From assembly GCF_001477655.1 (NCBI RefSeq), contig NZ_CP011266.1:248001-312000 (forward strand): 64,000 nucleotides of DNA, read 5' to 3'. The notes under the pieces were generated by a model that was given only the letters and a program-made list of their open reading frames with translations, was not told the DNA's origin and did no database searches. A program made the position numbers and the translations under genes. The stretch's first letter is position 1, and each line of letters opens with the position of its first letter. The DNA comes from Methanobrevibacter millerae. GTDB taxonomy: Archaea > Methanobacteriota > Methanobacteria > Methanobacteriales > Methanobacteriaceae. Below, in pieces: positions 3,469 to 37,906 of this stretch.

Positions 3469-4645
3469 AGGAAGATATGGGGAATATGGAGGTCAATATA
3501 TATCAGAGACGTTAATGCATGAATTACTCCATTTGGAAGAACAATATAACTATTATATGAATAATCCTGATTTTATTGATGAATTGAATACATTATTAAA
3601 GGAATATGCTGGAAGACCATCTCTTTTGTATTATGCAAAAAGGATGACAGAAGATCTTGGCGGAGCAAAAATATATTTAAAAAGGGAGGATTTAAATCAT
3701 ACTGGAGCACACAAAATCAATAATGTTTTGGGTCAAGTTTTGCTTGCTAAGAAGATGGGCAAGACCAGAGTAATTGCAGAAACTGGTGCTGGCCAACATG
3801 GTGTGGCAACAGCAACTGCAGCAGCACTCTTGGATATGGAATGTGAAGTTTTCATGGGTGAAGTTGACACCAAAAGACAAGCTTTAAACGTTTATCGTAT
3901 GGAACTGCTTGGTGCAAAGGTGCATTCTGTCAAATCTGGAACTAAAACCTTGAAGGATGCAGTTAACGATGCATTCCGGGATTGGATTGCTAATGTTGAA
4001 ACAACAAATTATGTGATTGGTTCAACAATGGGGCCACATCCATTTCCTCAAATGGTTAGGGATTTTCAGGCAGTTATAAGTGAAGAGGCACGCAAGCAAA
4101 TACTTGAAAAAGAAGGAAAACTGCCAACTGCAGTATTGGCCTGTGTTGGCGGAGGAAGTAATGCAATGGGTGCATTTTATAATTTCATTGATGATGAGAA
4201 TGTTCAATTAATTGGATGTGAGGCTGGAGGAAAAGGTGTAGACACTCCATATAATGCGGCTGCATTGACTAACGGTAGAATAGGGATATTCCATGGGATG
4301 AAATCGTTATTTAACCAGGGTGAATATGGACAAATCGCTCCAGTATATTCGATATCTGCAGGTTTGGATTATCCTGGTGTTGGACCCGAACATGCATTTT
4401 TAAAAGATTCTGGAAGGGCTCAATATGTCCCGGTTAATGATGAAGAAGCAGTTGAGGCTTTTGAATACCTGTCTAGAATGGAAGGTATCATTCCAGCTAT
4501 TGAAAGTTCACATGCGGTTGCTCATGCAATGAAAATTGCACCTGAAATGGGTAAAGATGATATTATAATTGTCTGTTTATCTGGGCGTGGAGATAAGGAT
4601 GTTAAATCCATTGCTGATTACAGGGGAGTTGATTTAAATGAGTAG
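3461..4645 (+). CDS. trpB: Tryptophan synthase beta chain
   Basis: PLP enzyme that condenses indole with serine to tryptophan. It has 394 residues, the size of the TrpB1 type that pairs with TrpA. The Schiff-base lysine lies in [11 protein letters not shown] near residue 83, the phosphate-binding loop is GGGSNAMG, and [13 protein letters not shown] is the carboxylate-binding segment. The N-terminal [12 protein letters not shown] matches TrpB1 rather than the longer TrpB2 family. It overlaps both trpF and trpA by 8 bases. Confidence 0.97.
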
Positions 4646-5411
4646 AATACCAAATGCATTTAAAAATGGAACAGCATTCATTGGATTTTTAACCGCAGGG
4701 GATCCTACAATTGAAAAAACTGTGGAATACATTTTAGCTATGGATGAGGCGGGTTGTGATTTGATTGAAATAGGTATTCCATTTTCTGATCCTATGGCTG
4801 AAGGTGTTGTAATTCAGGATGCTAACGTGCGTGCTCTAAAACACAATACAACAACTGATGACGTATTTGAAATTGTTAAAAAGGTTCGCCAGAAAACTGA
4901 TGTTCCATTAGTATTTTTAACTTATATCAATCCTGTATTTTTCTATGGCTATGAAGAGTTCTTTAAGAAATGCAATGAATATGGTGTTGATGGAATAATT
5001 TCACCGGATTTACCCTATGAGGAGAAAGGTGAAATTGCAGATATTGCGGCTCAAAATGGTGTTGACGTAATTTCACTTATAGCACCAACTTCCAAAGAAA
5101 GAATTCAGATGATAGCTTCTGATGCAACAGGTTTTATTTATGTTGTATCCTCATTGGGAGTAACTGGAATGCGTTCTGAAATTAAGACAGATTTAAATGC
5201 CATAATTTCAGACATTAAGGATGTGTGTGATATACCTGTTGCTGTCGGGTTTGGTATCAACACTCCAGAACAAGCATCAAAAATTTCTAAAATCTCTGAT
5301 GGTGTAATTGTTGGAAGTGCTATTGTTAAAATCATTGAGGAGCATGGTGAAAATGCTTCAGAAGCATTAAAGGAATATGTGTCTGATATGAAAAATGCAT
5401 GTATCCAATAA
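4638..5411 (+). CDS. trpA: Tryptophan synthase alpha chain
   Basis: Cleaves indole-3-glycerol phosphate and channels indole to TrpB. It has 257 residues. The catalytic Glu and Asp are in [15 protein letters not shown] and [14 protein letters not shown]; the phosphate site is GFGINTPEQ and [10 protein letters not shown]. It is the last gene of the trp operon. The 79-base gap that follows carries a TATA-like element for pcn and no hairpin, so trp transcription may end in the AT-rich spacer. Confidence 0.96.
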
Positions 5412-5412
5412 G

Positions 5413-5426
5413 AAATATTTATAATA
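5413..5426 (+). promoter_or_regulatory. Putative TATA box upstream of pcn
   Basis: The A/T stretch AAATATTTATAATA lies about 65 bases before the pcn start and fits an archaeal box A with a short 5' leader. A purine-rich ribosome-binding stretch (TTAGAGGA) sits about 9 bases before the pcn ATG. Inferred from composition and position only. Confidence 0.4.
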
Positions 5427-5490
5427 CATAATCAACATAATATTTAATATTATTCAAAGATTTTTTTGATTAAAAATTAGAGGATTATTT

Positions 5491-6225
5491 ATGTTTAAAG
5501 CTGAATTAAGTGATTCTAGTATTTTAAAAACCAGTTTTGATGCTATTTCATCTATTGTAGATGAGGTTCAAATCCAAACTGATAGTGAAGGTATGAGATT
5601 AGATGCCTTAGACCGTAGTCACATAACATTCGTTCATTTAGAACTCAAATCTAGTTTATTTGATGAATATATTTGTGATGTTCCTGAAAAAATCAATATT
5701 GATACTGATGAATTTATGAGAGTTCTTAAAAGGGCTAAATCTCAAGATAGAGTTTTAATGTCTGTAGATGAAGGTAATTTCATTATTACTTTTGAAGGAG
5801 ATGCTACAAGAACATTTAAAATAAGATTAATTGATATCGAGTATGATAATCCTACTCCTCCTCAAATTAATCACCCAACATCATTCAAAGTTCGTTTCTC
5901 TATCTTAAAAGATTCAATCAACGATATTGAAATATTCTCAGATAAAATTGCTTTGGAAGTTGATGAAGATTACTTCATTGCATCTGCTGACGGTGAGTTC
6001 GGGGATGCCAGTATCAAGTATCTTCACGGCGAAAATATAAAAGAGCATGAAAAAGCATTATTCTCTTTAGATAAAATTAGGGAAATGCTTAAAGCAGACA
6101 AATTTTCAGAGGAAGCTGAAATTAGTTTAGGTACTGACATGCCGTTGAGTTTAACCTTGACTATGGTTACTGGTGATGGTAAACTTAGTTTCTTGCTTGC
6201 TCCAAGATTAGAAACAGATGAATAA
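5491..6225 (+). CDS. pcn: DNA polymerase sliding clamp PCNA
   Basis: Homotrimeric ring that tethers DNA polymerases, Fen1, ligase and other factors to DNA. It has 244 residues, the normal PCNA length, with no duplication. Recognised by [24 protein letters not shown], the central-loop segment [16 protein letters not shown], and the C-terminal LAPRLETDE that follows the last beta strand. It is followed at 54 bases by a GINS-like gene, a replisome pairing expected in archaea. A hairpin over the stop codon suggests a transcript end between the two genes. Confidence 0.97.
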
Positions 6226-6240
6226 TTTCATTTGTTTTTT
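6212..6240 (+). terminator. Stop-codon hairpin and T tract after pcn
   Basis: An 11-bp stem (one G-U pair) formed by 6212-6222 and 6227-6237 encloses the pcn stop codon in its 4-base loop and runs straight into a T run. It has the shape of an intrinsic terminator. One of ten such structures in the window. Confidence 0.6.
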
Positions 6241-6279
6241 TCTTATTTTAATTTTTAAAACCATCCGAGATGATATTAA

Positions 6280-7269
6280 GTGGATTTATATCAATATTTG
6301 CGTAAAATTCAGAAAAAAGAACGTGATAATGGTACTTTAGCTCACGTTGAAGAATCTTTTTATGATGATATTCATAAATATATCAATGAATTGAAACAGT
6401 CCGCTATTGATGATCCATTTTCTGATGTATACAATACTTTAAATGAGGCTAGAAGGATAGCTACTGAAATTTGTGAAAGAAGGGAGCATAAAATTACTAA
6501 TGCTGCTGTCTTGAATATGAACAGGTCTTATCATCTCTTTTCTGGTAAACAGGAGTTTGATTTAGTTGATTCAATACCTCTTAATTTGACCCCTGAAGAA
6601 GAAACATTCTATTTTTCAGTAATAGAAACTTTAAAAAATCACAGGCTTAATCTTTCAGGACAAGAGGTTCCTAAAGTTTCTAAAAAGGATGATGTTGAAG
6701 ATATTCCTGAAGAAGAACCAATAAAATCTCCTTCCAATTCATTAAGTGATGTTGCCGATGCAGCTATTGATGATGTTAAAGTGGAAGATGATGTTTTACA
6801 GAAGGCTGATGAAACTTTAAATTCTCAAGATAAACCTTCATCTGATGCTGGTGATGTATCTGTTGATGAAAAACCAGTAACTTCTGGTGATGATGTCTTA
6901 GATAGACTTGATAAAATATCCAAGGCCAAAGTCATCACTGATGAAGTAAGAGAACCTATTGAAAAGCAAATCGCCAATTCTTCTGTTAGTAAAGTTCCTG
7001 AAATTAAAAAGGATGTTCCTAAAAAACAGGATAAATTTGATGATATAGAGATTTTAGATAATGATGATCAGTTCATTGATTTGGATGTTCCAAAAAGAAC
7101 TAAGGAATCTGAAATAGTAACTATTCTGGTTTTGGATGATGTTGATTCCATTATGGGTATTGATGAGAAGGTTTATGGTCCGTTTAGGTCTCAAGATATT
7201 GTAACATTGCCTAAAATCAATGCAAATATTTTTGTCAAAAATAGAAAAGCCCGTTTTGTAAAAATCTGA
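6280..7269 (+). CDS. GINS-complex subunit (Gins51-like)
   Basis: Likely archaeal GINS protein, part of the MCM-associated replicative helicase complex. From the GTG at 6280 it encodes 329 residues. The N-terminal A domain is helical (about residues 1-125, with MDLYQYLRKIQKKER, KITNAAVLN and NLTPEEETFY). A long acidic, low-complexity linker (about 130-275) follows. The C-terminal B domain is small and beta-rich (VTILVLDDVDSIMGIDEK, YGPFRSQDIVTLPKINA). A-before-B order is the Gins51 arrangement. The linker is much longer than in typical archaeal homologues. The neighbouring pcn supports a replication role. Upstream GAGATGAT may act as the ribosome-binding site. Confidence 0.75.
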   Translation: MDLYQYLRKIQKKERDNGTLAHVEESFYDDIHKYINELKQSAIDDPFSDVYNTLNEARRIATEICERREHKITNAAVLNMNRSYHLFSGKQEFDLVDSIPLNLTPEEETFYFSVIETLKNHRLNLSGQEVPKVSKKDDVEDIPEEEPIKSPSNSLSDVADAAIDDVKVEDDVLQKADETLNSQDKPSSDAGDVSVDEKPVTSGDDVLDRLDKISKAKVITDEVREPIEKQIANSSVSKVPEIKKDVPKKQDKFDDIEILDNDDQFIDLDVPKRTKESEIVTILVLDDVDSIMGIDEKVYGPFRSQDIVTLPKINANIFVKNRKARFVKI

Positions 7270-7558
7270 AATTAAATTTCAAAAATTACCTTATTTTTCA
7301 AGCAATTATGCAGATATTGCATAACTTTAAATACTTTTATTAATATAATTATATCTCATATCTATTTGTAATATTAAAAAATTATTTATTATAATTTGGA
7401 TTTTTGCTGTTTGTAGACATAAACAGTTACTATGCAGTTTCTATCTCTAACAATTTTTGATATAAATTGAGTTTAGATAAATTTACAACTAGATTTATAA
7501 TGACTATTTAATTAAGCACTTCAAGTGCCGATTAAAATAAAAAAATAATGGTGGAAAA
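7270..7558 (+). promoter_or_regulatory. AT-rich intergenic region before rpl44e
   Basis: No gene seen. It contains an A/T-rich candidate box A (ATTTATAATGACTATTTAAT, about 7494-7513) and a compact palindrome GCACTTCAAGTGC about 40 bases before the rpl44e start. The ribosome-binding stretch GGTGG is 5 bases before the ATG. The palindrome may be an operator or a leader hairpin; nothing further can be said. Confidence 0.4.
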
Positions 7559-7837
7559 ATGAAAATACCAAAAGAAAAAAGAACTTACTGTCCTCATTGT
7601 AAAAAACATACAATGCATGAACTCCACACTGCTAAAAAAAGAAAAGCTAGTGAGTTAACTTGGGGACAAAGACAATTCAGACGTGTCACTGCTGGTTACA
7701 GAGGTTATCCAAGGCCTTTACCTGCTGGAAACAAACCGGTTAAAAAATTAGACTTAAGAGCTAAATGTAAAGAATGTGGTAAATCTCACATTAAACAATC
7801 TTTCAGAACAGGAAAACCTGAATTTGTAGCAAAATAG
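7559..7837 (+). CDS. rpl44e: Large ribosomal subunit protein L44e
   Basis: Zinc-ribbon protein of the archaeal and eukaryotic large ribosomal subunit near the E site. It has 92 residues. The ligand pairs are CPHC (near residue 12) and CKEC (near residue 73). The core [32 protein letters not shown] is diagnostic in its parts. The ATG at 7559 follows GGTGG. The stop is followed within 10 bases by rps27e, so the two zinc-ribbon ribosomal genes are cotranscribed, the usual archaeal arrangement. Confidence 0.97.
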
Positions 7838-7846
7838 GTGGTTAAC

Positions 7847-8026
7847 ATGGTTAGTAAAGGTAGAGGAAACTTTTTAAAAGTTAAATGTTTAGATTGTGAC
7901 AATGAACAAATAATCTTTGACCGTGCAGCTTCTGATGTTAAATGTATTATTTGTGGTAAAACTCTTGTTAAATCTCGTGGTGCTAAGGCTAAAATCACAG
8001 CACACATTGAAAAAGTTTTAAACTAA
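7847..8026 (+). CDS. rps27e: Small ribosomal subunit protein S27e
   Basis: A zinc-ribbon small-subunit ribosomal protein of 59 residues. The ligands are CLDC and CIIC, with the typical NEQIIFDRAASDVKC spacing and a C-terminal LVKSRGAKAKI. The frame also has a GTG at 7838, but the ATG at 7847 is preceded by AGGTGG at good spacing and gives the family N-terminus MVSKGRGNF. It lies between rpl44e and the aIF2-alpha gene. A hairpin over its stop codon is followed by long T tracts. Confidence 0.96.
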   Translation: MVSKGRGNFLKVKCLDCDNEQIIFDRAASDVKCIICGKTLVKSRGAKAKITAHIEKVLN

Positions 8027-8041
8027 ATTTTTTTAGTTTTT
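8021..8041 (+). terminator. Stop-codon hairpin and T tract after rps27e
   Basis: AACTAAA and TTTAGTT (8021-8027, 8032-8038) form a 7-bp stem that includes the stop codon and continues into T-rich sequence. The next gene begins at 8093, so read-through to aIF2-alpha is possible. Confidence 0.45.
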
Positions 8042-8092
8042 TACTTATTTTAACTATTTTTTAATTTTTTACTTATTTTTGGGGTGATTTGC

Positions 8093-8890
8093 ATGGTAAG
8101 AAAAAGTCAAGAATGGCCTGATGAAGGAGAACTTATTGTAGGTACTGTTTATAAAGTTCTTAATTATGGTGCATTCGCTAAATTAGAAGAATATCAAGGC
8201 AAAGAAGCTTTTATTCATATTTCTGAAGTCTCTGCTGGTTGGGTAAAAAATATTAGAGATCACGTTAGAGAAAATCAAAAGATTGTATGCCGTGTTCTAA
8301 GAGTAAACCCTAAAAAAGGACATGTGGATGCTTCTTTAAAAAGAATCCGTGAAGATCAAAGAACTAAAAAGATTCAACATTGGAAAATTGAACAAAAAGC
8401 AGAAAAATTCTTGGAATTATCTGCTAAATCCTTAGATAAGACATTGGATGAAGCTTATGATGAAGTTGGTTATGAGATTATGGACATCTTTGGTGATGTT
8501 TATGGTGCTTTTGAAACCGCCGCTGATGAAGGAGCTGAATCTTTAACTGAAGAAGGAATACCTCAAGATTGGGCTGATGCTATTACTAAAGTAGCTCAAA
8601 AGAACATTACTCCTCCGGAAGTTCATATTAACGGTTATGTGGATATTGAAACCTTTGTTCCTAATGGAGTAGAAATCATTATTGATGCTCTTAAAGCTGC
8701 TGAAGACAACGGTGATGCTGAAGAAGAAATCAAAGTCCAATGTGTTGGTGCTCCAAGATACAGAATCACTGTAAAATCAACAGATTATATCCTTGCTGAA
8801 AAAGCGCTAAAAGCTGCTGCTGAAAGATGTATTGCTGTTGTTGAAGAATCTGAAGGAAACGGTTCATTTTTAAGAGAGTTAGATGATTAG
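8093..8890 (+). CDS. Translation initiation factor aIF2 subunit alpha
   Basis: Alpha subunit of the heterotrimeric initiation factor that delivers initiator tRNA. It has 265 residues from the ATG at 8093. A GTG at 8084 is also in frame, but GGGGTGA sits properly before the ATG. The N-terminal S1 domain (about residues 10-85) is clear: [20 protein letters not shown] and [17 protein letters not shown] helical middle domain and the C-terminal alpha-beta domain ([20 protein letters not shown]) follow. The gene stands beside ribosomal and rRNA-modification genes, as in other archaea. Confidence 0.95.
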
Positions 8891-8896
8891 ATTCTT

Positions 8897-9076
8897 ATGA
8901 GTATGAAAATGCGTAAATGTCCCGAATGTGGAATTTATACTTTAGAGGATAAATGCCCTAAATGTAGTGGGGAGCTTAAAGTTATTTATCCTCCAAAATT
9001 TTCTATTGAAGATAAATATGGTAAGTACCGTCGTATATTAAAAAAAGAATTAAGGGATAAAAATGAAAGCCACTGA
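8897..9076 (+). CDS. nop10: H/ACA ribonucleoprotein subunit Nop10
   Basis: A small zinc-binding scaffold of the H/ACA guide-RNA pseudouridylation complex, working with Cbf5. The frame runs from ATG 8897 to TGA 9074-9076 (59 residues); ATGs at 8903 and 8909 are alternative starts. The family pattern is plain: KCPECGIYTL, then DKCPKCSG (two CxxC pairs), then PPKFSIEDKYGKYRR. It begins 7 bases after the aIF2-alpha stop and overlaps the next gene by 14 bases. The aIF2-alpha/Nop10/PAC2 order is common in euryarchaea. Confidence 0.93.
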   Translation: MSMKMRKCPECGIYTLEDKCPKCSGELKVIYPPKFSIEDKYGKYRRILKKELRDKNESH

Positions 9077-9833
9077 AATTACTATTTTAGAAGAAGTAGA
9101 ATTGGAAAATCCTATTTTTATTGAAGCATTACCTGGTGTTGGTCATGTAGGTAAATTGGTTGCAGATCATATGATTGATGAACTTGATGCAACAAAATTT
9201 GCTGAAATATATTCCCCAACTTTTCCCCCTCAGGTTTTGGTTGGTGAAGACGGCATGATTGAAAACATGATTAATGAATTATATTATATCCGTGATTTAG
9301 GTGAAGAAAATCAGGATATTATTATAATTGGTGGAAATACTCAATCATTATCTCCGGATGGTCAATATATTGTTTGCAGCGAAATTTTAGAATTTTTAGA
9401 ACCTTTTAATATATCTAGAATTTTCACTTTAGGCGGTGTGCCTACAGGTCAGCCTATTGAAAATCCAAGAGTATTGGGAGCAGCTAGCGACGAAGCTCAC
9501 ATTGAACTTTTAAAAGAAGTGGGTGTTGAAATGAGATCCAATGATGGTGGAATTGTCGGTGCTTCAGGTTTATTCTTAGGTTTAGGAATGCGCAAAGGAA
9601 TATATGGGGCTTGTCTGATGGGTGAAACTCCAGGTTACTTTATCGATGCGGAGTCTGCTGAAGGCGTTTTATTGAAATTAGCAGAATTACTTAATTTTGA
9701 AATTAATACCGAAAAACTTGATGAAAGGGCTGAACAAACAAGAGAAATGTTAGCTAAAGCTCAACAAATGGAACAGGATTTAATTAATCGTGCTAATGCC
9801 GGAAACGCTGATGACTTAAGATATATTGGATAA
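9063..9833 (+). CDS. PAC2-family protein (proteasome assembly chaperone-like)
   Basis: A 256-residue member of the PAC2 family, which includes archaeal PbaB-type chaperones and eukaryotic proteasome assembly chaperones. Visible: FIEALPGVGHVGKLVADHMIDEL near the N-terminus, FPPQVLVGEDG, IIIIGGNTQSLSPDGQY, the central TLGGVPTG, and a charged C-terminal helix (LDERAEQTREMLAKAQQ). The start lies inside nop10, implying coupling. A proteasome role is known for some family members and is only inferred here. Confidence 0.85.
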   Translation: MKATEITILEEVELENPIFIEALPGVGHVGKLVADHMIDELDATKFAEIYSPTFPPQVLVGEDGMIENMINELYYIRDLGEENQDIIIIGGNTQSLSPDGQYIVCSEILEFLEPFNISRIFTLGGVPTGQPIENPRVLGAASDEAHIELLKEVGVEMRSNDGGIVGASGLFLGLGMRKGIYGACLMGETPGYFIDAESAEGVLLKLAELLNFEINTEKLDERAEQTREMLAKAQQMEQDLINRANAGNADDLRYIG

Positions 9834-9856
9834 TAATCCAATTTTTTTATTTTTTT
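9825..9856 (+). terminator. Stop-codon hairpin and T tract after the PAC2 gene
   Basis: ATTGGAT (9825-9831) and ATCCAAT (9836-9842) form a perfect 7-bp stem with a 4-base loop that holds most of the stop codon. It is followed by a long T-rich run. The next gene starts at 9858 immediately after it, without a clear ribosome-binding site. Confidence 0.6.
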
Positions 9857-9857
9857 C

Positions 9858-10388
9858 ATGAATATTATTGTTATTCCGGATGGTGCAATGATTGTTGTGC
9901 CTTTAATTGAAAAGAATGGACATAACTATTTGTCTCCAACTAATTTTTCTAAATATGATAATGAACTTAATCTCAATCCTAATTTTAGAGTTAAAATGTC
10001 CTGTGAAACGCCTTCCGGCGTTCGCGGTCGTATTTCCCTTTTAGCTCCATTGCTGGAAAAAACTGATGCTGCGATTATTCTTGGCGAAAGGCCTCAAAAA
10101 TACGCACCGATGTATGGAGTTTTAAATGAACTGATTTTGTTTTGCGGCAACGGATGCAATAACGCACATTCTTTATCTGCACGCATTGTAAGTGAAATGG
10201 ATATTCCTGTTTTGAAATTGGCTTATCCAACTACCCGTGATAATATTATTGATTTAATCAATCGAGTTAATTTATTCTTAAAAGATTTTGACTCATCTAT
10301 CAGTGATGATATTAACACTGATTTAAAAAAACCGACATCAAAAATTTCCTTTTCTGATTTTAAAAAAATTTTAAATAATTCAATTTAA
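9858..10388 (+). CDS. Methanogenesis marker protein 5-like (DUF2112)
   Basis: A 176-residue protein with no catalytic motif I can name. The pattern PSGVRGRISLLAPLLEKTDAAI, followed by a Cys-containing CGNGCNN segment and KLAYPTTRDNIIDLI, resembles what I recall of the methanogen-restricted marker-5 family. The role of that family is unknown. The start ATG at 9858 has no obvious ribosome-binding site and follows a hairpin with a T run, so it may be a leaderless transcript. It is followed by an EndoQ-like gene 12 bases on. Confidence 0.6.
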   Translation: MNIIVIPDGAMIVVPLIEKNGHNYLSPTNFSKYDNELNLNPNFRVKMSCETPSGVRGRISLLAPLLEKTDAAIILGERPQKYAPMYGVLNELILFCGNGCNNAHSLSARIVSEMDIPVLKLAYPTTRDNIIDLINRVNLFLKDFDSSISDDINTDLKKPTSKISFSDFKKILNNSI

Positions 10389-30013: not shown

Positions 30014-30361
30014 TTCTTTTATGGTATTTCTTGTTGACAATACTTTCAAAAATGGCTATAATTTATCTTAATAGTGAAAGAATACCCTGACCGTGTGACA
30101 AGCTAGAATCAGTAATTTGTCATATAATTGAATATATGTTCTATGAACTGATAATTTATTTTTTTGAAGTGTGATATTAAAAGTGAGATGTGTCAGTTAT
30201 GTGGTCATATTTGATATGCTGGGCAATTATTATTTGACTATTTTATTATCTATTTGTTTTCATTTTATGAACACTTATTTATATAAATGTGTTTTTATTT
30301 TATGAACAATTATTTATATAATAACGTTTATAAATTATAAATGATTCTGTGCAGGTGATAA
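30014..30361 (+). promoter_or_regulatory. Gap before the AAA ATPase with a duplicated promoter segment
   Basis: No gene is seen in about 350 bases. Near the downstream end a 29-base segment is repeated with 35-base spacing (30257-30285 and 30292-30320; core TTTTATGAACA-TTATTTATATA). The A/T-rich TTATTTATATA parts resemble archaeal box A elements. This could be a double promoter or tandem operator for the ATPase gene. Confidence 0.5.
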
Positions 30362-31810
30362 ATGATGGAAGATGTAATTTATAATTATATAATAAAACAG
30401 CTGTCTGAAGTGCCAATGATTCTAAACAGGAAATTATCATATAAAAACATCAAGTTTAATAGTAAAAACGAATTTGATAAGCTCAGATTGATGATTGATA
30501 GTTTTTTAGATGGGGAATCTGAAGAGAGATACTTTGTACTTCCAGGAATTCGAGGGGTTGGAAAAACAACAATACTATACCAATGCTATGAATACTTGTT
30601 AAAGGAAAAAAACTTCAATTCAAGTGATCTGTTATATATTTCATGCGAAACAACAAATTTTGCAGGTCAAACAGATATCAAAAAAATAATAGAAATATAT
30701 TTGGATAAAATTCACAATACAACTCCTGCACTTTTAGACAAAACGGTTTTCATTTTCATTGATGAAGCACACTTTGATGAGAACTGGGCAATGAATGGTA
30801 AAATTCTCTATGATGAGTCTCCATATATTTTCCTGATATTGACAGGTTCATCATCACTTCACCTGAATTACAATTCTGATGCAGCCAGAAGGCTCAATAT
30901 ACTGCCGGTAATGCCATTAAACTATTCACAGCACTTGAGCTTAAAATACAACTACCAAACGGATTTTGGAAATGATCTGATTGAGTTGATATTCACAGGA
31001 AACATTGAATCTGCACAGGAAAAGGAGCTTAAAATCCAAAAGGATTTAATAGGATTGAAAGATTATCCATTAAATGATTGGAACATTTACTTAAAATATG
31101 GTGGTTTTCCTGCAACATTCAACATCAAATTCGAGGATGTAATTGTATCAAAATTATGGACAATAATATCAAAAGTGATAACTGTCGATATGGCAAATGT
31201 ATTCAATTTAAATAGGAACAATCAAAACTTGACTTATAAAACACTTGTATATCTTGCATCACAAAAACCGGGAGAAATATCACATGACAAACTGTCAAAC
31301 TACTTGGATTGTGGCAAAACAACCATAAATAATATTATCAATATATTGGAAAAGACACAACTGATATTTCACAGTGAAGCTTATGGAGGGGCTTCTAAAA
31401 AAGTCAAAAAGCCATGGAAATATAACTTCGCAACGCCGAGTATCAGAAACTGCATAAATATAAAATTTGGAAACAATGCAGGATCAAAAAGTGAATATGA
31501 TGGGATACTATTGGAAAATCAAATAGCATCCAATCTATTTAATCTAAATAACAGTAATGTCTCATTTGATTTCAATGTCTATTATGATTCACAAAAGGGA
31601 GGTGTTGATTTTATCGTTAAAAAATTATTCGGCAGTGCAATACCAATAGAATCGGGAATAGGGAGCAAAACAAAAAGGCAAGTAAAAAAAGCAATGAACA
31701 AATATGATGCAGATTATGGGATTGTAGTTTCAAATAAAACAGATTTCATAGAAAAGGAAGATGATGTGATATTCATACCTCCAAAAACATTTTCTTTTTT
31801 ATCTAAATGA
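30362..31810 (+). CDS. AAA-family ATPase with C-terminal nuclease-like domain
   Basis: A 482-residue ATP-binding protein of the archaeal AAA_14-type group. Walker A is GIRGVGKTT near residue 64; Walker B is TVFIFIDEAHFDENW near 135; sensor-like LTGSSSLHLNYNSDAARR follows. A winged-helix segment (LSNYLDCGKTTINNIINILEKTQL) lies near residue 320. The C-terminal part has YDGILLENQIASNLF and a D-x(n)-E-x-G pattern (GGVDFIVKK, AIPIESGIGSK) like a restriction-type nuclease fold. Such proteins are common, rapidly evolving and of unclear cellular role. AGGTGA precedes the ATG. It is not fused to the DUF4143 fragment upstream. Confidence 0.8.
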   Translation: MMEDVIYNYIIKQLSEVPMILNRKLSYKNIKFNSKNEFDKLRLMIDSFLDGESEERYFVLPGIRGVGKTTILYQCYEYLLKEKNFNSSDLLYISCETTNFAGQTDIKKIIEIYLDKIHNTTPALLDKTVFIFIDEAHFDENWAMNGKILYDESPYIFLILTGSSSLHLNYNSDAARRLNILPVMPLNYSQHLSLKYNYQTDFGNDLIELIFTGNIESAQEKELKIQKDLIGLKDYPLNDWNIYLKYGGFPATFNIKFEDVIVSKLWTIISKVITVDMANVFNLNRNNQNLTYKTLVYLASQKPGEISHDKLSNYLDCGKTTINNIINILEKTQLIFHSEAYGGASKKVKKPWKYNFATPSIRNCINIKFGNNAGSKSEYDGILLENQIASNLFNLNNSNVSFDFNVYYDSQKGGVDFIVKKLFGSAIPIESGIGSKTKRQVKKAMNKYDADYGIVVSNKTDFIEKEDDVIFIPPKTFSFLSK

Positions 31811-32199
31811 TGCAAGAATACCACGACATCTTCAAGGTCGTGGATGAATTGCAAGTTGGGTTATACCTTTGTGAATTGTTATTTATTGGGTTTCATTTGC
31901 CATGATAATTGATTTTAATATTTTTTTGTATGGGTATTTATAATTCAGTGTACTTTCAGTTTTTTTTGGAGCATTTATTTTTGTATTTTTTTTGATATGT
32001 ATCACTTTTACAATGGAAAATTTGTAGTTTCATTTGTATTTCACGGGTGTTTATTTAATGTTTCTTGTTGTTTTTTAAACGTAGTTGATTTTTGTGGGCG
32101 ATATTACTTTTCAAATGCTCTCTGGGTATCTTTATATATTAATGGAGCATAAATTGTACTATTATGTGAAGATGGGTTAATAGTGTGGTGTTTTATGTT
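31811..32199. other. Gap between the ATPase and tnpB, with a relic hairpin
   Basis: No gene is seen. At 31821-31843 CCACGAC and GTCGTGG form a 7-bp hairpin followed by TGAATTGCAAG, similar in layout to the end hairpin of the tnpB element at 33374-33404. It may be the right end of an older TnpB element whose gene is gone. The remainder is AT-rich; the true left end of the present tnpB element should lie here but could not be fixed. Confidence 0.45.
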
Positions 32200-33342
32200 A
32201 TGGTGGATGTTAAAAAGGGAATGAAGGTTAAGATTTATCCTACTCAGGAGCAGAAGGATTGTTTTCATAGGAATTTTGGTTGCTGTCGCAAGGCCCATAA
32301 TGTCGTTCTTGACAAATACAATAAAATGCACAGTAACGATTCCAACCTAAGACCCACATTTACATTCTTAAATAAACTACTAAATGAAGCCAAGAGGGAA
32401 TTTCCTTATTTGGAGGATGTAGAATCAACAAGTCTCCAACAGGAAATAAGAGACTTGGCCACATCATTCGATAATTTCTTTAAAAATCCATCACACTTCA
32501 ATAAACCCCATTTTCACAAAAAGAAAACAGTTAAACTATCATTCAGACAAACAATAAGACAAGACATTAGAATCATCCAAAAAAATAAAATGATTCTGAG
32601 AAAATATGGCAAAGTAAAATTCCACACAAGCCAAGAATACTTCCAAATACAAAACGACAAAAATACAAAATTCAACAATGTAACAATCTCCTTTGATGGA
32701 ATAGACTACTTTGCAACATTCAACATTGATTTCACTGAAGAAGAATGGGAACTAACAGGTAAAAATGTAGGTTGTGATATTAATTCAAATGTAAACGGCT
32801 GGCTGGTCACAAGCGATGAGGAAAAGGAATACTTTGACATTGACCATGAAAACCAAATGGTCAAATTAATCAACCGGATAATGGCCAAATGCACAAATGG
32901 AAGCAAAAAATGGAAAAAACAGAAAATCAGACTATTAAAATGGTATCATCAACGATCCAATAAACTTGACGACTATATAGAGAAACTTTCAACAGAAATG
33001 GTCAAAAAATATGATGCCATAGTATTTGAGAAAAATTACTCAAAAATTAAAATATTGATTGGTGGCGAGCAAAACATGGTGTTTCCACTCACAAAATTCA
33101 TAACTAAACTACAAGACAAATTTGCTAGGCACAAACCTCAAGCAGAAGGCGTAGTATTTGTAGATGCAAAATATACCAGTAAAAAATGTCATTTTTGCGG
33201 AAACATCAACCATGAATTAGATGTGAAAACTCGAAAATGGAAATGTCCAAACTGCGGTAAAATACTAGACCGTGACATTAACGCCGCCATTAATATTTTG
33301 AACCGGTGGGACTACGGGGATAGCCTAGAAAACGCCAAATAA
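32200..33342 (+). CDS. tnpB: TnpB, IS200/IS605-family RNA-guided nuclease
   Basis: About 380 residues. The RuvC-like catalytic residues are in VGCDINSNVNGWL, VFEKNYSKIKI and DRDINAAINIL. The zinc ribbon is CHFCGNINHE then CPNCGK. The N-terminus KKGMKVKIYPTQEQKDCF is typical of TnpB. No TnpA transposase gene is adjacent, so this is a solo tnpB. TnpB proteins use an RNA from the element's right end as guide; the expected guide region is 33300-33404. The ATG at 32200 was chosen over two upstream GTG codons (32185, 32188). The gene appears intact. Confidence 0.9.
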   Translation: MVDVKKGMKVKIYPTQEQKDCFHRNFGCCRKAHNVVLDKYNKMHSNDSNLRPTFTFLNKLLNEAKREFPYLEDVESTSLQQEIRDLATSFDNFFKNPSHFNKPHFHKKKTVKLSFRQTIRQDIRIIQKNKMILRKYGKVKFHTSQEYFQIQNDKNTKFNNVTISFDGIDYFATFNIDFTEEEWELTGKNVGCDINSNVNGWLVTSDEEKEYFDIDHENQMVKLINRIMAKCTNGSKKWKKQKIRLLKWYHQRSNKLDDYIEKLSTEMVKKYDAIVFEKNYSKIKILIGGEQNMVFPLTKFITKLQDKFARHKPQAEGVVFVDAKYTSKKCHFCGNINHELDVKTRKWKCPNCGKILDRDINAAINILNRWDYGDSLENAK

Positions 33343-33373
33343 ACAAGTGGCACAAAAAAACAAATCTAGGAAT

Positions 33374-33404
33374 CCTCGATTTCTACAAAGTCGAGGTAGT
33401 TCAA
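33374..33404 (+). mobile_element. Right-end hairpin of the tnpB element
   Basis: CCTCGA (33374-33379) and TCGAGG (33391-33396) form a stem 32 bases after the tnpB stop, followed by TAGTTCAA. In characterised IS200/IS605 elements the right cleavage site follows a hairpin and ends in TCAA, as at 33401-33404 here. The outer group II intron begins at the very next base. Confidence 0.6.
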
Positions 33405-34057
33405 GTGCGACAAGATAGAGTCTCCAATTCCCTTATAAAGTCAGTAAACTGAATATTAATTTAGATAAATTAATATAAATGTTTAATCCTTGTTGTGTAG
33501 GATTTCCCCCATTGAAATCTCAAATCTGGCAACGGATTTAGAGAGTTGCATGATATTATGCCTAATTTAATGAGAGTATTCCGATTTAAAAGGCTAGGGG
33601 AAGAATAAGAATGGTCAACGTTATGTGAACAATTGTAAGCATCGTCACCTCGGAAGCAGGTGGGATACATTGCAGAATATTTTCTGCTACTGCTATGCAA
33701 TTAGGAAATAAGTAGTTTGAACGTACTTATATTTCACAACCCATAGAATTGCCGGTGTAAAGATTGGACCTTCCCTTATTCGTATCTGACGGGAGATTAA
33801 CTTGGTAAGCCATTTGAAGTCCAAAAAAAAAATTTTTTGGTAAGCCGATTGTGAAAGAAGCCGAATTCTTCAGGTGGTAGAGGATTTTGAAGAAAGCGAA
33901 TGCCGTTATAGTCGAAAGACAGCAGTAAACTGGGAATATAATAACTGTGAACGGATACCGTTCTTTATGAACGGCATGGAAACATGGCTGAATTTCAAAG
34001 AGTAGACAACGTGTAAATAAAACTAGGATTCTTGTTTATTGAAAGGATGGTGATCAG

Positions 34058-34636
34058 ATGAGTTATACTCAAAACTATGATGTTTTAGAGTCCACAGCAT
34101 CATACACTACAATTTGGCGAGAAACCAATTGGAAGAAAGTCAACAGGTATGTAAATAAACTAAGACATAGGATATTTCGTGCTGAAAGTGAAGGAAATAG
34201 TAGAAAGGTTAGAGATTTACAAAGACTGCTAATTCGCAGTAAGGCGGCTTTGAAATTAGCAATACGTAGAGTTACTCAAACCAATAAAGGTAAGAGGACT
34301 CCGGGTGTTGATGGTTTTACAGCCATGAATGATGCCAAACGAGGAAAATTATTTGTTAAACTGAATAATAGAGATATTAAGAAACATAAGCCAAAACCTG
34401 TCAAACGTATTTATATTCCAAAAAAGAACGGTAAAAAACGTTCTTTAGGAATACCAACTATAATCGATAGAGTATATCAGGAGTTGCTTCGTCTTGCGTT
34501 AGAACCACAATGGGAGGCTCGTTTTGAACCCACCAGTTACGGTTTTAGACCCGCAAGAAGGACTCATGACGCGCTAGAGAGGATATTTTTCAATACCAAA
34601 TCTGGCAAGTGGAGTCAAGTTTTCGAAGGCGATTTT
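34058..34636 (+). CDS. Outer-intron reverse transcriptase/maturase, 5' part
   Basis: The first 193 codons of the outer intron's RT. It has the N-terminal extension (NWKKVNRYVNKLRHRIFRA) and RT blocks 0-2 (TPGVDGF, RIYIPKKNGKKRSLGIPTI, QWEARFEPTSYGFRP). It is cut just after VFEGDF, inside RT motif A, by the inner intron. Without splicing the frame runs on for 10 foreign codons to a stop at 34669. The start follows GGATGGTGA at 34045. Confidence 0.9.
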
Positions 34637-36881
34637 GTGCGACAAGAAGTATCTCTTTCTTCATTTTAAGCAGTGAAAATTCATTAAAATGGATTTTCAA
34701 TCCCTGTTGTGTTGGGATTTCCCCCCTTGAAACTCTTAATTGAGTAATTGATTAGGAGGTTGCATGATTGTATGTCTAATCAGAATTTAGTATTCGAATT
34801 CTGAAGGCTAGGGGAAGGATAAGAACGATTAATCTTTATGGTGAACGGATGTAAGCGTCGTAACTTCGAACAATAGGTGGAATACGATGTTTTCCTATTA
34901 GTTAGGATGACTACTATTGTCTTGCAGACTGGAAATAAATATTGAAATCATATTTATATTGCACAACCCATATGTCTGTCGGTGTATAGTCCGAATCGTC
35001 CCTTATTCGTATCTGATTGGAGATAAACTTGGTAAACCCCACGAGGTCCCGATTAAGGTCGGGTAAACGGATTGTGAATGATGTTTAATTCCTTAGGGGG
35101 TAGAGGATTTCAAAGAAAGCAAATGCCGTTATTAACCGAAAGGTAGCAGGAAGAAATGAAGATATGTAACTGTGAACGGATATCACTCCATTGTGGGTGG
35201 CAGGGATAACCTGGCTGACTTTTGAATGGTATGCAACGTGTATATAATGCGTATTTGTATAAAACTATTAAAGGATGGTGACTAATAATGAGATTAACTC
35301 CAAATGATAACATTTGTGAGCCCGCGAAACCAGATGCAACCGATTGGGAAAGTATTAAATGGTACAAAGTCAATCGGCATGTAGATAGTTTACAAAAACG
35401 AATATATCGTGCTAGTAAAGATAATGATAAGAAAAAAGTCCGTGATTTACAAAGACAATTGATGAGAAGTAATTCTGCTTTGTTAAAAGCAATTAATAGA
35501 GTTACTAAAGAAAATAAAGGAAAATCAACTCCTGGCATTGATGGTTTTAAAGCTACAAGTGACCGTGCTCGTGGTAAACTATTTGACATGCTCAAAAAGG
35601 AGAAAATGAAATTACATAAACCTAAACCTGCGTATCGAAAATACATTCCTAAAAAGAACGGTAAATTAAGGTCTTTGGGTATTCCCACTATTAAAGACCG
35701 TATTTATCAGGAGATAATTCGTATGGCATTAGAACCCGAATGGGAAGCGAAATTTGAACCTACAAGTTATGGATTTCGTCCCAAAAGAAGTACACACGAT
35801 GCTGCGAGAAGAATACACTATAACATCAAATGGAATAAATGGTGTTGGGTGTACGAAGGAGATTTTCGCTCTTGCTTCGATACACTAAACCATGATTTCA
35901 TACTTAAACAAATCAAAGGCTTTCCTCATTATAATCTTGTTAAAAGATTTTTGGAAGCTGGATATGTTGATAATGGTGTATTTCATAATACTCTTGAAGG
36001 AACTCCTCAAGGAGGATTACTCTCTCCACTACTTGCAAATATTGCATTACATGGTATGGGGGAAATATTAGGTATATCATACGCTAGATATGAAAATAAA
36101 AGAGGAATAACATATGCTTCTAGGGGCAAATACCGTATGGTGAGGTATGCTGATGATTTTTTGATTTTTGCACAATCTAAAGAAGATATACTGAAAGTCG
36201 AAAGCATCTTACAACCTTATCTTGACGAAAGAGGTTTGGTTTTAGCTGAGGATAAAACATTCATTAAACATATTTCCGAAGGATTCGATTTCTTAGGTTT
36301 CAATTTTAGACAATATAAAACCAAAGACGGTTTATTGTGCTTAAATAAACCTTCTAAGGATAGTATAAATAAGTTTAAAATGAAAATTGATGATATATGT
36401 AAATCCTGTTATGGAAATAATGTGGGAGTTTTAATAAGGCGACTGAATCCAGTCATTCGAGGTACTGCTAATTATTGGAGACATGTTGTTTCAAAGAAAG
36501 TATTCGGTGCTATGGATGATTATATTTGGAATAAAATATATAAGTTCTTGCGAAGATTACATGGAAACAAAGGTAAAAAGTGGATTAAACAAAGATATTT
36601 TCCTTATTTCAATAACGGTAGATATACTGGCAATTGGATTTTGACTGATCCATTGACTGGTGATTATCTAATTAAAATGAAATGGACTCCTATTAGGCGA
36701 CATATTATGATAAAACATGATTATAGTCCTTATGATAAAGATAAAATTGATTATTTTGATATGCGCGATAAAAGATATTCTTATTTTACTGGATAAATGC
36801 ATACTTGAGCCCATTGTATCGAAAGGTACACGATGGGTTCTTAGGAGAGGCAAGGAGAGTAATCTCCTTGTTTTATCCGAC
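34637..36881 (+). mobile_element. Inner group II intron inside the outer RT gene
   Basis: It begins with GTGCGACAAG at 34637 and ends with TTATCCGAC at 36881, the same ends as the outer intron. Its 5' RNA region (34637-35287) aligns along its length with the outer one. Domain V is at about 36809-36841 (GAGCCCAT ... GAAA ... ATGGGTTC). Joining base 34636 to base 36882 restores an uninterrupted RT frame (EGDF then KACFDTISHEF). It carries a complete RT gene. Confidence 0.92.
35288..36796 (+). CDS. Inner-intron reverse transcriptase/maturase
   Basis: A complete intron-encoded protein of 502 residues that should drive splicing and retrohoming. RT blocks: TPGIDGF, KYIPKKNGKLRSLGIPTI, YEGDFRSCFDTLNHDF (motif A with catalytic Asp), EGTPQGGLLSPLLANIAL, and MVRYADDFLIFAQ with the YADD box. 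The maturase X region includes FDFLGFNF and LIRRLNPVIRGTANYW. The C-terminal segment RRHIMIKHDYSPYDKDK lacks the Cys pairs of an HNH endonuclease, so homing may use nicks made otherwise. GGATGGTGA precedes the ATG. Confidence 0.95.
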   Translation: MRLTPNDNICEPAKPDATDWESIKWYKVNRHVDSLQKRIYRASKDNDKKKVRDLQRQLMRSNSALLKAINRVTKENKGKSTPGIDGFKATSDRARGKLFDMLKKEKMKLHKPKPAYRKYIPKKNGKLRSLGIPTIKDRIYQEIIRMALEPEWEAKFEPTSYGFRPKRSTHDAARRIHYNIKWNKWCWVYEGDFRSCFDTLNHDFILKQIKGFPHYNLVKRFLEAGYVDNGVFHNTLEGTPQGGLLSPLLANIALHGMGEILGISYARYENKRGITYASRGKYRMVRYADDFLIFAQSKEDILKVESILQPYLDERGLVLAEDKTFIKHISEGFDFLGFNFRQYKTKDGLLCLNKPSKDSINKFKMKIDDICKSCYGNNVGVLIRRLNPVIRGTANYWRHVVSKKVFGAMDDYIWNKIYKFLRRLHGNKGKKWIKQRYFPYFNNGRYTGNWILTDPLTGDYLIKMKWTPIRRHIMIKHDYSPYDKDKIDYFDMRDKRYSYFTG

Positions 36882-37808
36882 AAGGCTTGCTTCGATACGA
36901 TAAGTCATGAGTTTATACTCAAGAAACTTGATGGATTTCCTTATGTTGACGTGATAGAGAAAATTCTTAAGGCAGGATATAATGACGAAGGAAATTTCTT
37001 TCCCACAGAGCAAGGGACTCCTCAAGGAGGCTTATTATCTCCACTATTGGCCAATATTGCATTAACTGGACTTGAAGACTATCTTAACATCTCATATAAG
37101 AAATCGTTTCGCAAAGATGGATATGAAATTATTACAACTCATGGAAATTATCGTTCTGTGAGATACGCTGATGATTTTCTTATCTTTGCCCAAACCAAGG
37201 AAGAAATCGAAGAAGTTTACAATATCTTAGAACCATATTTAGAAGAAAGAGGGTTAATCCTAGCAGAGGATAAAACCGACACTACTACAATATACGAAGG
37301 ATTCGATTTCCTTGGATTTAATATTAGAAGTGAAGATGGGAATAAATGTATTATTAAACCATCCAAAGACAGTCTAAAAGAGGCGAGAGCCATTATCAAT
37401 GAGGTCTTCGGTCATATGAAAGGGCATAATGTAGGTGAATTAATATCCGTGTTAAATCCCGTTATTGATGGGATTGCAGAATATTGGAAACCATTATGTT
37501 CTACGGATGCATTTCATGCCATAGACCATCATATATGGACTAGGACATGGATTTTCTTAAATCATCTCCACTCTGGTAAGAGTAAAGAGTGGATAGTTTC
37601 CAAATATTTTCCAAAACCGGAAAAGAATGCTAAACATAATGACCGATGGATTTTAACAGACCCAAAATCTGGAGAACAATTACACAAAATGCGTCAGGTC
37701 AATATTGAAAGGCACACGATGGTTAAAGGTAATTATTCCCCACTAGATAGAAGTAAATTTGAATATTTTAAGAAAAGATTCAATTCTAATAAGAATTACT
37801 TCAGATAA
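36882..37808 (+). CDS. Outer-intron reverse transcriptase/maturase, 3' part
   Basis: The continuation of the outer RT: KACFDTISHEFILKKLDGFP (rest of motif A), EQGTPQGGLLSPLLANIAL, SVRYADDFLIFAQ (YADD box), FDFLGFNIR and the maturase segment LISVLNPVIDGIAEYW, ending RSKFEYFKKRFNSNKNYFR. With the 5' part it gives 501 residues against 502 for the inner protein, with no lesion. An unspliced reading upstream to 36717 crosses inner-intron RNA and is not meaningful. Function depends on removal of the inner intron. Confidence 0.9.
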   Translation, partial: KACFDTISHEFILKKLDGFPYVDVIEKILKAGYNDEGNFFPTEQGTPQGGLLSPLLANIALTGLEDYLNISYKKSFRKDGYEIITTHGNYRSVRYADDFLIFAQTKEEIEEVYNILEPYLEERGLILAEDKTDTTTIYEGFDFLGFNIRSEDGNKCIIKPSKDSLKEARAIINEVFGHMKGHNVGELISVLNPVIDGIAEYWKPLCSTDAFHAIDHHIWTRTWIFLNHLHSGKSKEWIVSKYFPKPEKNAKHNDRWILTDPKSGEQLHKMRQVNIERHTMVKGNYSPLDRSKFEYFKKRFNSNKNYFR

Positions 37809-37906
37809 ATGTCTATTTGAGCCGTATGTCTTGAAAGGGACACGTACGGTTCTTGGGAGAGTGCGGGAGAGCAATCTCCCAATCTTATCCGACAGAAATT
37901 ACTGCC

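Follow-up and report, generated by a model that had tools for sequence, protein, structure and literature searches.

Group II introns nested within one another are the closest described parallels to the locus reported here. In Methanosarcina acetivorans, group II introns have homed repeatedly and site-specifically into one another to a depth of as many as five, and recombination has trimmed the resulting nests, as a 2015 review describes (PMC4424553, covering Dai and Zimmerly 2003). Compared with these nests, the locus of Methanobrevibacter millerae SM9 is similar in being archaeal, in its site-specific homing into group II introns and in losses by recombination between copies (PMC4424553), and differs in belonging to another archaeal order and in having both partners with open reverse transcriptase (RT) genes in one nest. 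Here EBS/IBS pairing pins the targets to the codons for EGDF, YADDF, GGLLS and FLGF.

In Thermosynechococcus elongatus, ORF-less introns occupy RT genes (PMC2882425). As with its TeI3/TeI4 introns, one family in SM9 uses one conserved RT-gene site, with inner copies near identical and hosts diverged (PMC2882425). The inner intron of TeI3/TeI4 is ORF-less, can use the host RT and lies between two start codons (PMC2882425), whereas in SM9 the inner intron has an RT gene of its own and interrupts the core of the host RT. The twintron of Trichodesmium erythraeum carries two RT genes and is spliced sequentially in vivo (PMC4649490); there, as in SM9, where the splicing order is a predicted one, both introns encode their own protein. 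Two differences from SM9 are that the Trichodesmium inner intron occupies domain I instead of the RT gene and that the two introns together split a host gene (PMC4649490). IStrons combine a group I intron with an IS605-type transposon (PMC4227781), and the SM9 locus likewise has a self-splicing type of intron at such a transposon (PMC4227781); the SM9 intron differs in being a group II retroelement for which the transposon tip is just a target, in one of three near-identical copies. We consider that the SM9 nest belongs with the known nested group II introns, and is not a new kind of element. The paper describing the SM9 genome makes no mention of introns or RTs (PMC4987999), and a literature search of partial coverage found no relevant paper joining Methanobrevibacter with group II introns.

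Two nested group II introns in the SM9 window

The window, the whole stretch of 64,000 nucleotides that was analysed, is M. millerae SM9 DNA (G000:C1:248001-312000) from a genome of 2,543,538 bases in one contig. The nest comprises the following features:

33405..34636, plus strand: 5' part of outer intron O, with domains I-III and the beginning of the RT gene; 5' end GTGCGAC
34058..34636, plus strand: outer RT, codons 1-193 (to ...EGDF), RVT_N and start of RVT_1
34637..36881, plus strand: inner intron C1, complete, 2245 nt; second copy (97.9% identity) in locus L015
35288..36796, plus strand: inner RT/maturase, 502 aa (TIGR04416, 340 bits; Pfam RVT_N, RVT_1, GIIM)
36805..36881, plus strand: inner domain V/VI, bulged A at 36875 (RF00029, 44.3 bits)
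36882..37893, plus strand: outer intron O, 3' part (remaining RT gene, domains V-VI; Rfam RF00029, 53.1 bits)
36882..37808, plus strand: outer RT, codons 194-501 plus stop (KACFD...YADDF...GIIM), with the remainder of RVT_1 and with GIIM; joined frame open
37817..37893, plus strand: outer domain V/VI, bulged A at 37887 (RF00029, 53.1 bits)

The first-pass annotation had read this region as two full-size sibling introns with the same ends, and on re-reading the sequence the coordinates and lengths that it gave (2245 nt for the inner intron, 2244 nt for the outer once the inner is removed) proved exact. Both introns start with GTGCGACAAG and finish with TTATCCGAC, and both have a GUGYG-type 5' end and an AY 3' end (GTGCGAC ... 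CCGAC). The 5' end of O matches an intron 5'-end profile (E=1e-9), and the ribozyme regions of O and C1 are 71% identical. Joining 34636 to 36882 yields, as had been claimed, an open outer RT of 501 aa that reads EGDF-KACFD at the junction and contains YADDF, and neither this frame nor the 502-aa inner one carries a lesion. The arrangement is that of a twintron: the inner intron interrupts the outer, and its precise removal restores the 501-codon frame. Read without splicing, the outer RT would run 10 codons into the inner intron and then meet a stop (34058-34669).

According to Pfam and NCBIfam models, the inner RT contains RVT_N, RVT_1 and GIIM, and the two outer halves share these domains in the expected order, split at the insertion. 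The domain search found no HNH endonuclease domain in either RT, so both introns look like En-minus elements. Both copies of domain V/VI score above the gathering cut-off of 40 of the Rfam group II model (RF00029), including the inner one, which fast filters had missed. When the 3' ends of 16 introns of the family were aligned, 18 of the 27 domain V/VI pairs displayed double, pair-keeping changes, and an unpaired A lay seven bases before the 3' end.

Target pairing and the transposon host

The following elements of both introns and of their 5' exons bear on the choice of target:

34622..34636, plus strand: inner intron target in the outer RT gene; IBS2 TTCGAAG at 34622-34628, IBS1 GATTTT at 34631-34636
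34864..34870, plus strand: inner EBS2 CTTCGAA, 7 Watson-Crick pairs with IBS2
34944..34949, plus strand: inner EBS1 GAAATC, 6/6 with GATTTT, one G-U
33391..33404, plus strand: outer intron target, IS200/605 right tip; IBS2 TCGAGGT at 33391-33397, IBS1 GTTCAA at 33399-33404
33647..33653, plus strand: outer EBS2 ACCTCGG, 7 pairs with IBS2, one G-U
33717..33722, plus strand: outer EBS1 TTGAAC, 6/6 Watson-Crick with GTTCAA

In both introns, EBS1 and EBS2 pair with the 5' exon. EBS1 directly precedes an ACAAC-type motif that is conserved in domain I, and its partner is the last six bases of the exon. When exons were exchanged among introns, 44 automatically taken intron/exon pairs scored 528 for EBS1-IBS1 against a shuffled mean of 333.5 (sd 13.1; maximum 377.5, n=2000), and 28 pairs scored 344 for EBS2-IBS2 against 215.6 (sd 12.3); the introns in these sets are partly related to one another and hence not all independent. 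A hand-read version of EBS1 gave full matches in 17 of 18 cases and is weaker, since the loops were picked by eye. Single-sequence folding of the EBS1 segments was no better than shuffles, and the EBS1 hairpin therefore rests on its conserved position and on exon pairing. The choice of target is accounted for by EBS pairing, which far exceeds that of the shuffles.

The codons for EGDF in the inner intron itself (window 35852-35869) keep IBS1, with C rather than A at position +1 (CGC) and one change in IBS2. These changes are a possible lead towards self-avoidance; against it, sister lineages share non-K codons there, and one intron of the H family apparently lies inside another H (L063). A similar EGDF site stands empty in each of the three identical F introns of SM9, which implies that homing is either inefficient or not recent.

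The outer intron is hosted by a transposon:

31803..33404, plus strand: IS200/605-type TnpB transposon, with the outer intron at its right tip
32185..33342, plus strand: tnpB, RNA-guided nuclease, 385 aa (NF040570, 180.5 bits)

Two further copies of this transposon (contig C1:232860 and C1:197746) are 99.4% identical to it over 1610 bases. Neither holds the intron: both end at the same TTCAA and continue into unrelated flanks, which places the outer intron exactly at the right tip. An IStron identity was rejected on these 99.4% identical intron-free copies and on the group II nature of the elements. The sequence common to all copies begins at 31795 with TTTTTTAT, which is probably the target motif. 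The five nearest relatives checked yielded no alignable transposon-free allele of the locus: next to dus they carry sequence that bears no relation to what flanks the transposon on its left.

Transposons of this kind seem to be used by further intron families of the genus as well. The left part of the copy in the window contains an empty target site for the F introns (window 32102-32121, minus strand), a group with identical RTs in its three SM9 copies, and F introns seem to sit on the opposite strand of the left region of this transposon type. As read by eye, G introns occupy a hairpin resembling one near the transposon left end, and L086 and L087 lie in sequence resembling the end of tnpB. 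From window position 30093 onward (plus strand), GTGTGACAAGCTAGAATCAG looks like the 5' end of a group II intron, though no recognisable intron sequence follows; it is possibly an intron remnant.

In TnpB elements generally, the guide begins at the transposon tip. The outer intron sits exactly where scaffold would give way to guide, at the right tip GTTCAA, and if a guide RNA were made, the guide carried by TnpB would depend on whether the twintron is spliced, an idea that we regard as improbable. If it were true, the guide of the unspliced form would be the intron 5' end, and splicing of both introns would return the original flank; for a group II element, this would parallel the conflict between intron and guide RNA that is known from IStrons.

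A second nest and recurrence in the Methanobacteriaceae

SM9 contains a second, decayed nest:

G000:C1:1690000-1704000, minus strand: locus L015, with the nest at C1:1694037-1699351 (3760-9967 of the reverse complement)

Its order is a 202-nt 5' piece of an A-type intron, a B-type 5' half, C2 and the remainder of an A-type RT. C2 is a copy of the inner intron of the window (97.9% identity) and lies at the same codon, EGDF^K, but in another host intron; a third intron, D, which is a relative of B, in turn splits C2 after GGLLS. The C2 RT has a one-base deletion that shifts its frame, and host B is frameshifted and 3'-truncated; this damage suggests that many such nests decay.

Repeats as long and as similar as C1 and C2 could have led two similar introns to be misassembled one inside the other. 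We consider this extremely unlikely: SM9 has a closed chromosome with a pulsed-field gel check (PMC4987999), C1 and C2 are distinct at 45 sites and by two indels, assemblies made independently (L022, L051) show the junction motif again, and the insertion points fit EBS/IBS pairing.

In L015, the RT that follows C2 is A-type (90% identity to L085) and not B-type. L051 (G094:C31, 147-4949) has the same A/B layout around C', a relative of the inner intron that lies after YADDF; its RT is B-type before the insertion and A-type after it (75% identity to L085, 47% to B-type). The L015 chimera is best explained by recombination between two inner-intron copies in nested hosts. The B-type 5' half and A-type 3' half around the inner intron in both loci are a precedent for a similar origin of O, by recombination between inner-intron copies in different hosts, in which case the joined RT would not be ancestral. 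Unlike in L015 and L051, the three sequences nearest to one half of the window's outer RT (L057a, L062 and L052b) are also those nearest to the other half, and we rejected this origin, which is refuted at this resolution and is left with very little probability.

The nested-intron reading and the restoration of the frame stand in all sequence tests made, with support from the covariation of domain V/VI, EBS/IBS pairing, the second inner copy and the intron-free transposon copies. The nest is confirmed as a real observation, and chance is ruled out.

A related RT was present in 32 of the 139 Methanobacteriaceae genomes, and the control genome, M. acetivorans, was positive in the search. The same inner intron lies at EGDF in contigs L022 and L050, and in L066 a 48/48-nt identical inner-intron 3' end adjoins the same codon of another host; L068 starts at the codon following EGDF, which is suggestive and nothing further. 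Host RTs of the EGDF insertions are about 45-65% identical in most pairs. In another species, C' (L051) is 79% identical to the inner intron. Further kinds of nesting involve intron E, found after FLGF within the inner intron in L022 and L050; intron B, which in both L015 and L051 has entered domain I of A at one and the same base; H introns at the domain V/VI junction (L024, L061, L063, L065, L069-L072); and a shortened intron that occupies the terminal loop of domain V in an F-type intron (L054, minus strand, 744-1763). The H-family insertions include an ORF-less intron of about 0.9 kb (L061), and in L063 an H intron is apparently within another. In L050 (DEJH01000028.1), the methanogen intron nest is present at 98-99% identity in a contig labelled as Bacillales MAG UBA2753, which is probably misbinned.

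The comparison with Methanosarcina-type homing into intron ORFs, put forward in the first-pass annotation, is borne out by one lineage at one site in different hosts (two in SM9; L022, L050, L066). Its description of the case as uncommon holds for the intactness of both partners only, since intron-in-intron homing is recurrent in Methanobacteriaceae. In a quick RT tree, nested lineages do not form one clade and at least five changes of state are required, indicating that the nesting habit arose or was lost several times. The viral contigs searched held no relative of the introns, and the plasmids searched held distant group II RTs only (<60% identity).

Formation and present state of the nest

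The explanation that we favour, with a probability of roughly 0.85, is EBS-guided homing of mobile RT-encoding group II introns into multicopy mobile DNA. Outer intron O would have homed to the right tip of the TnpB transposon, and C1 would then have retrohomed into the RT gene of O, a different group II intron. Once a transcript is made, the C1 maturase would be translated from C1's own domain IV and C1 spliced out; this would restore the RT frame of O, allowing the O maturase to be made and O to be spliced out in turn. Splicing, the order of events, the retrohoming route and current activity are what we infer from the sequence. The damage in L015 and the empty EGDF sites of the F introns weigh against this explanation.

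The low dN/dS values of the inner RT, about 0.10 (C1-C2), 0.07 (C1-L022) and 0.09 (C1-C'), show purifying selection, under which the inner lineage has remained functional. The loci compared included none closely related to the outer intron, whose open frame may reflect recent insertion alone. These data bear on a rather unlikely alternative, which agrees with EBS-guided homing on how the nest formed and differs on present function: the inner intron would have homed without splicing, the outer would be dead, and the nest would be intact by recency. In its favour, the sister nest L015 is already decayed, and the outer RT has no close relative among the loci compared by which selection after the insertion could be gauged. 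Against it, all splicing cis elements examined are intact in both introns and the inner RT lineage is under purifying selection; the C1-C2 dS of about 0.06, an upper bound on recency, allows some decay and requires none.

The nest also suggests that annotation pipelines blind to outer introns, a limitation noted before (PMC8919778), will undercount archaeal group II introns. The SM9 nest is a well-preserved case of parasites parasitising parasites, in which a nest that is still intact can be seen next to one that has decayed and to the remains of recombination. It provides a natural system in a cultured host, a rumen methane-producing archaeon, where a mobile intron targets catalytic-core codons in the RT genes of its competitors, and in which sequential splicing in archaea, the avoidance of an intron's own RT gene, and the formation and collapse of nests can be tested directly.
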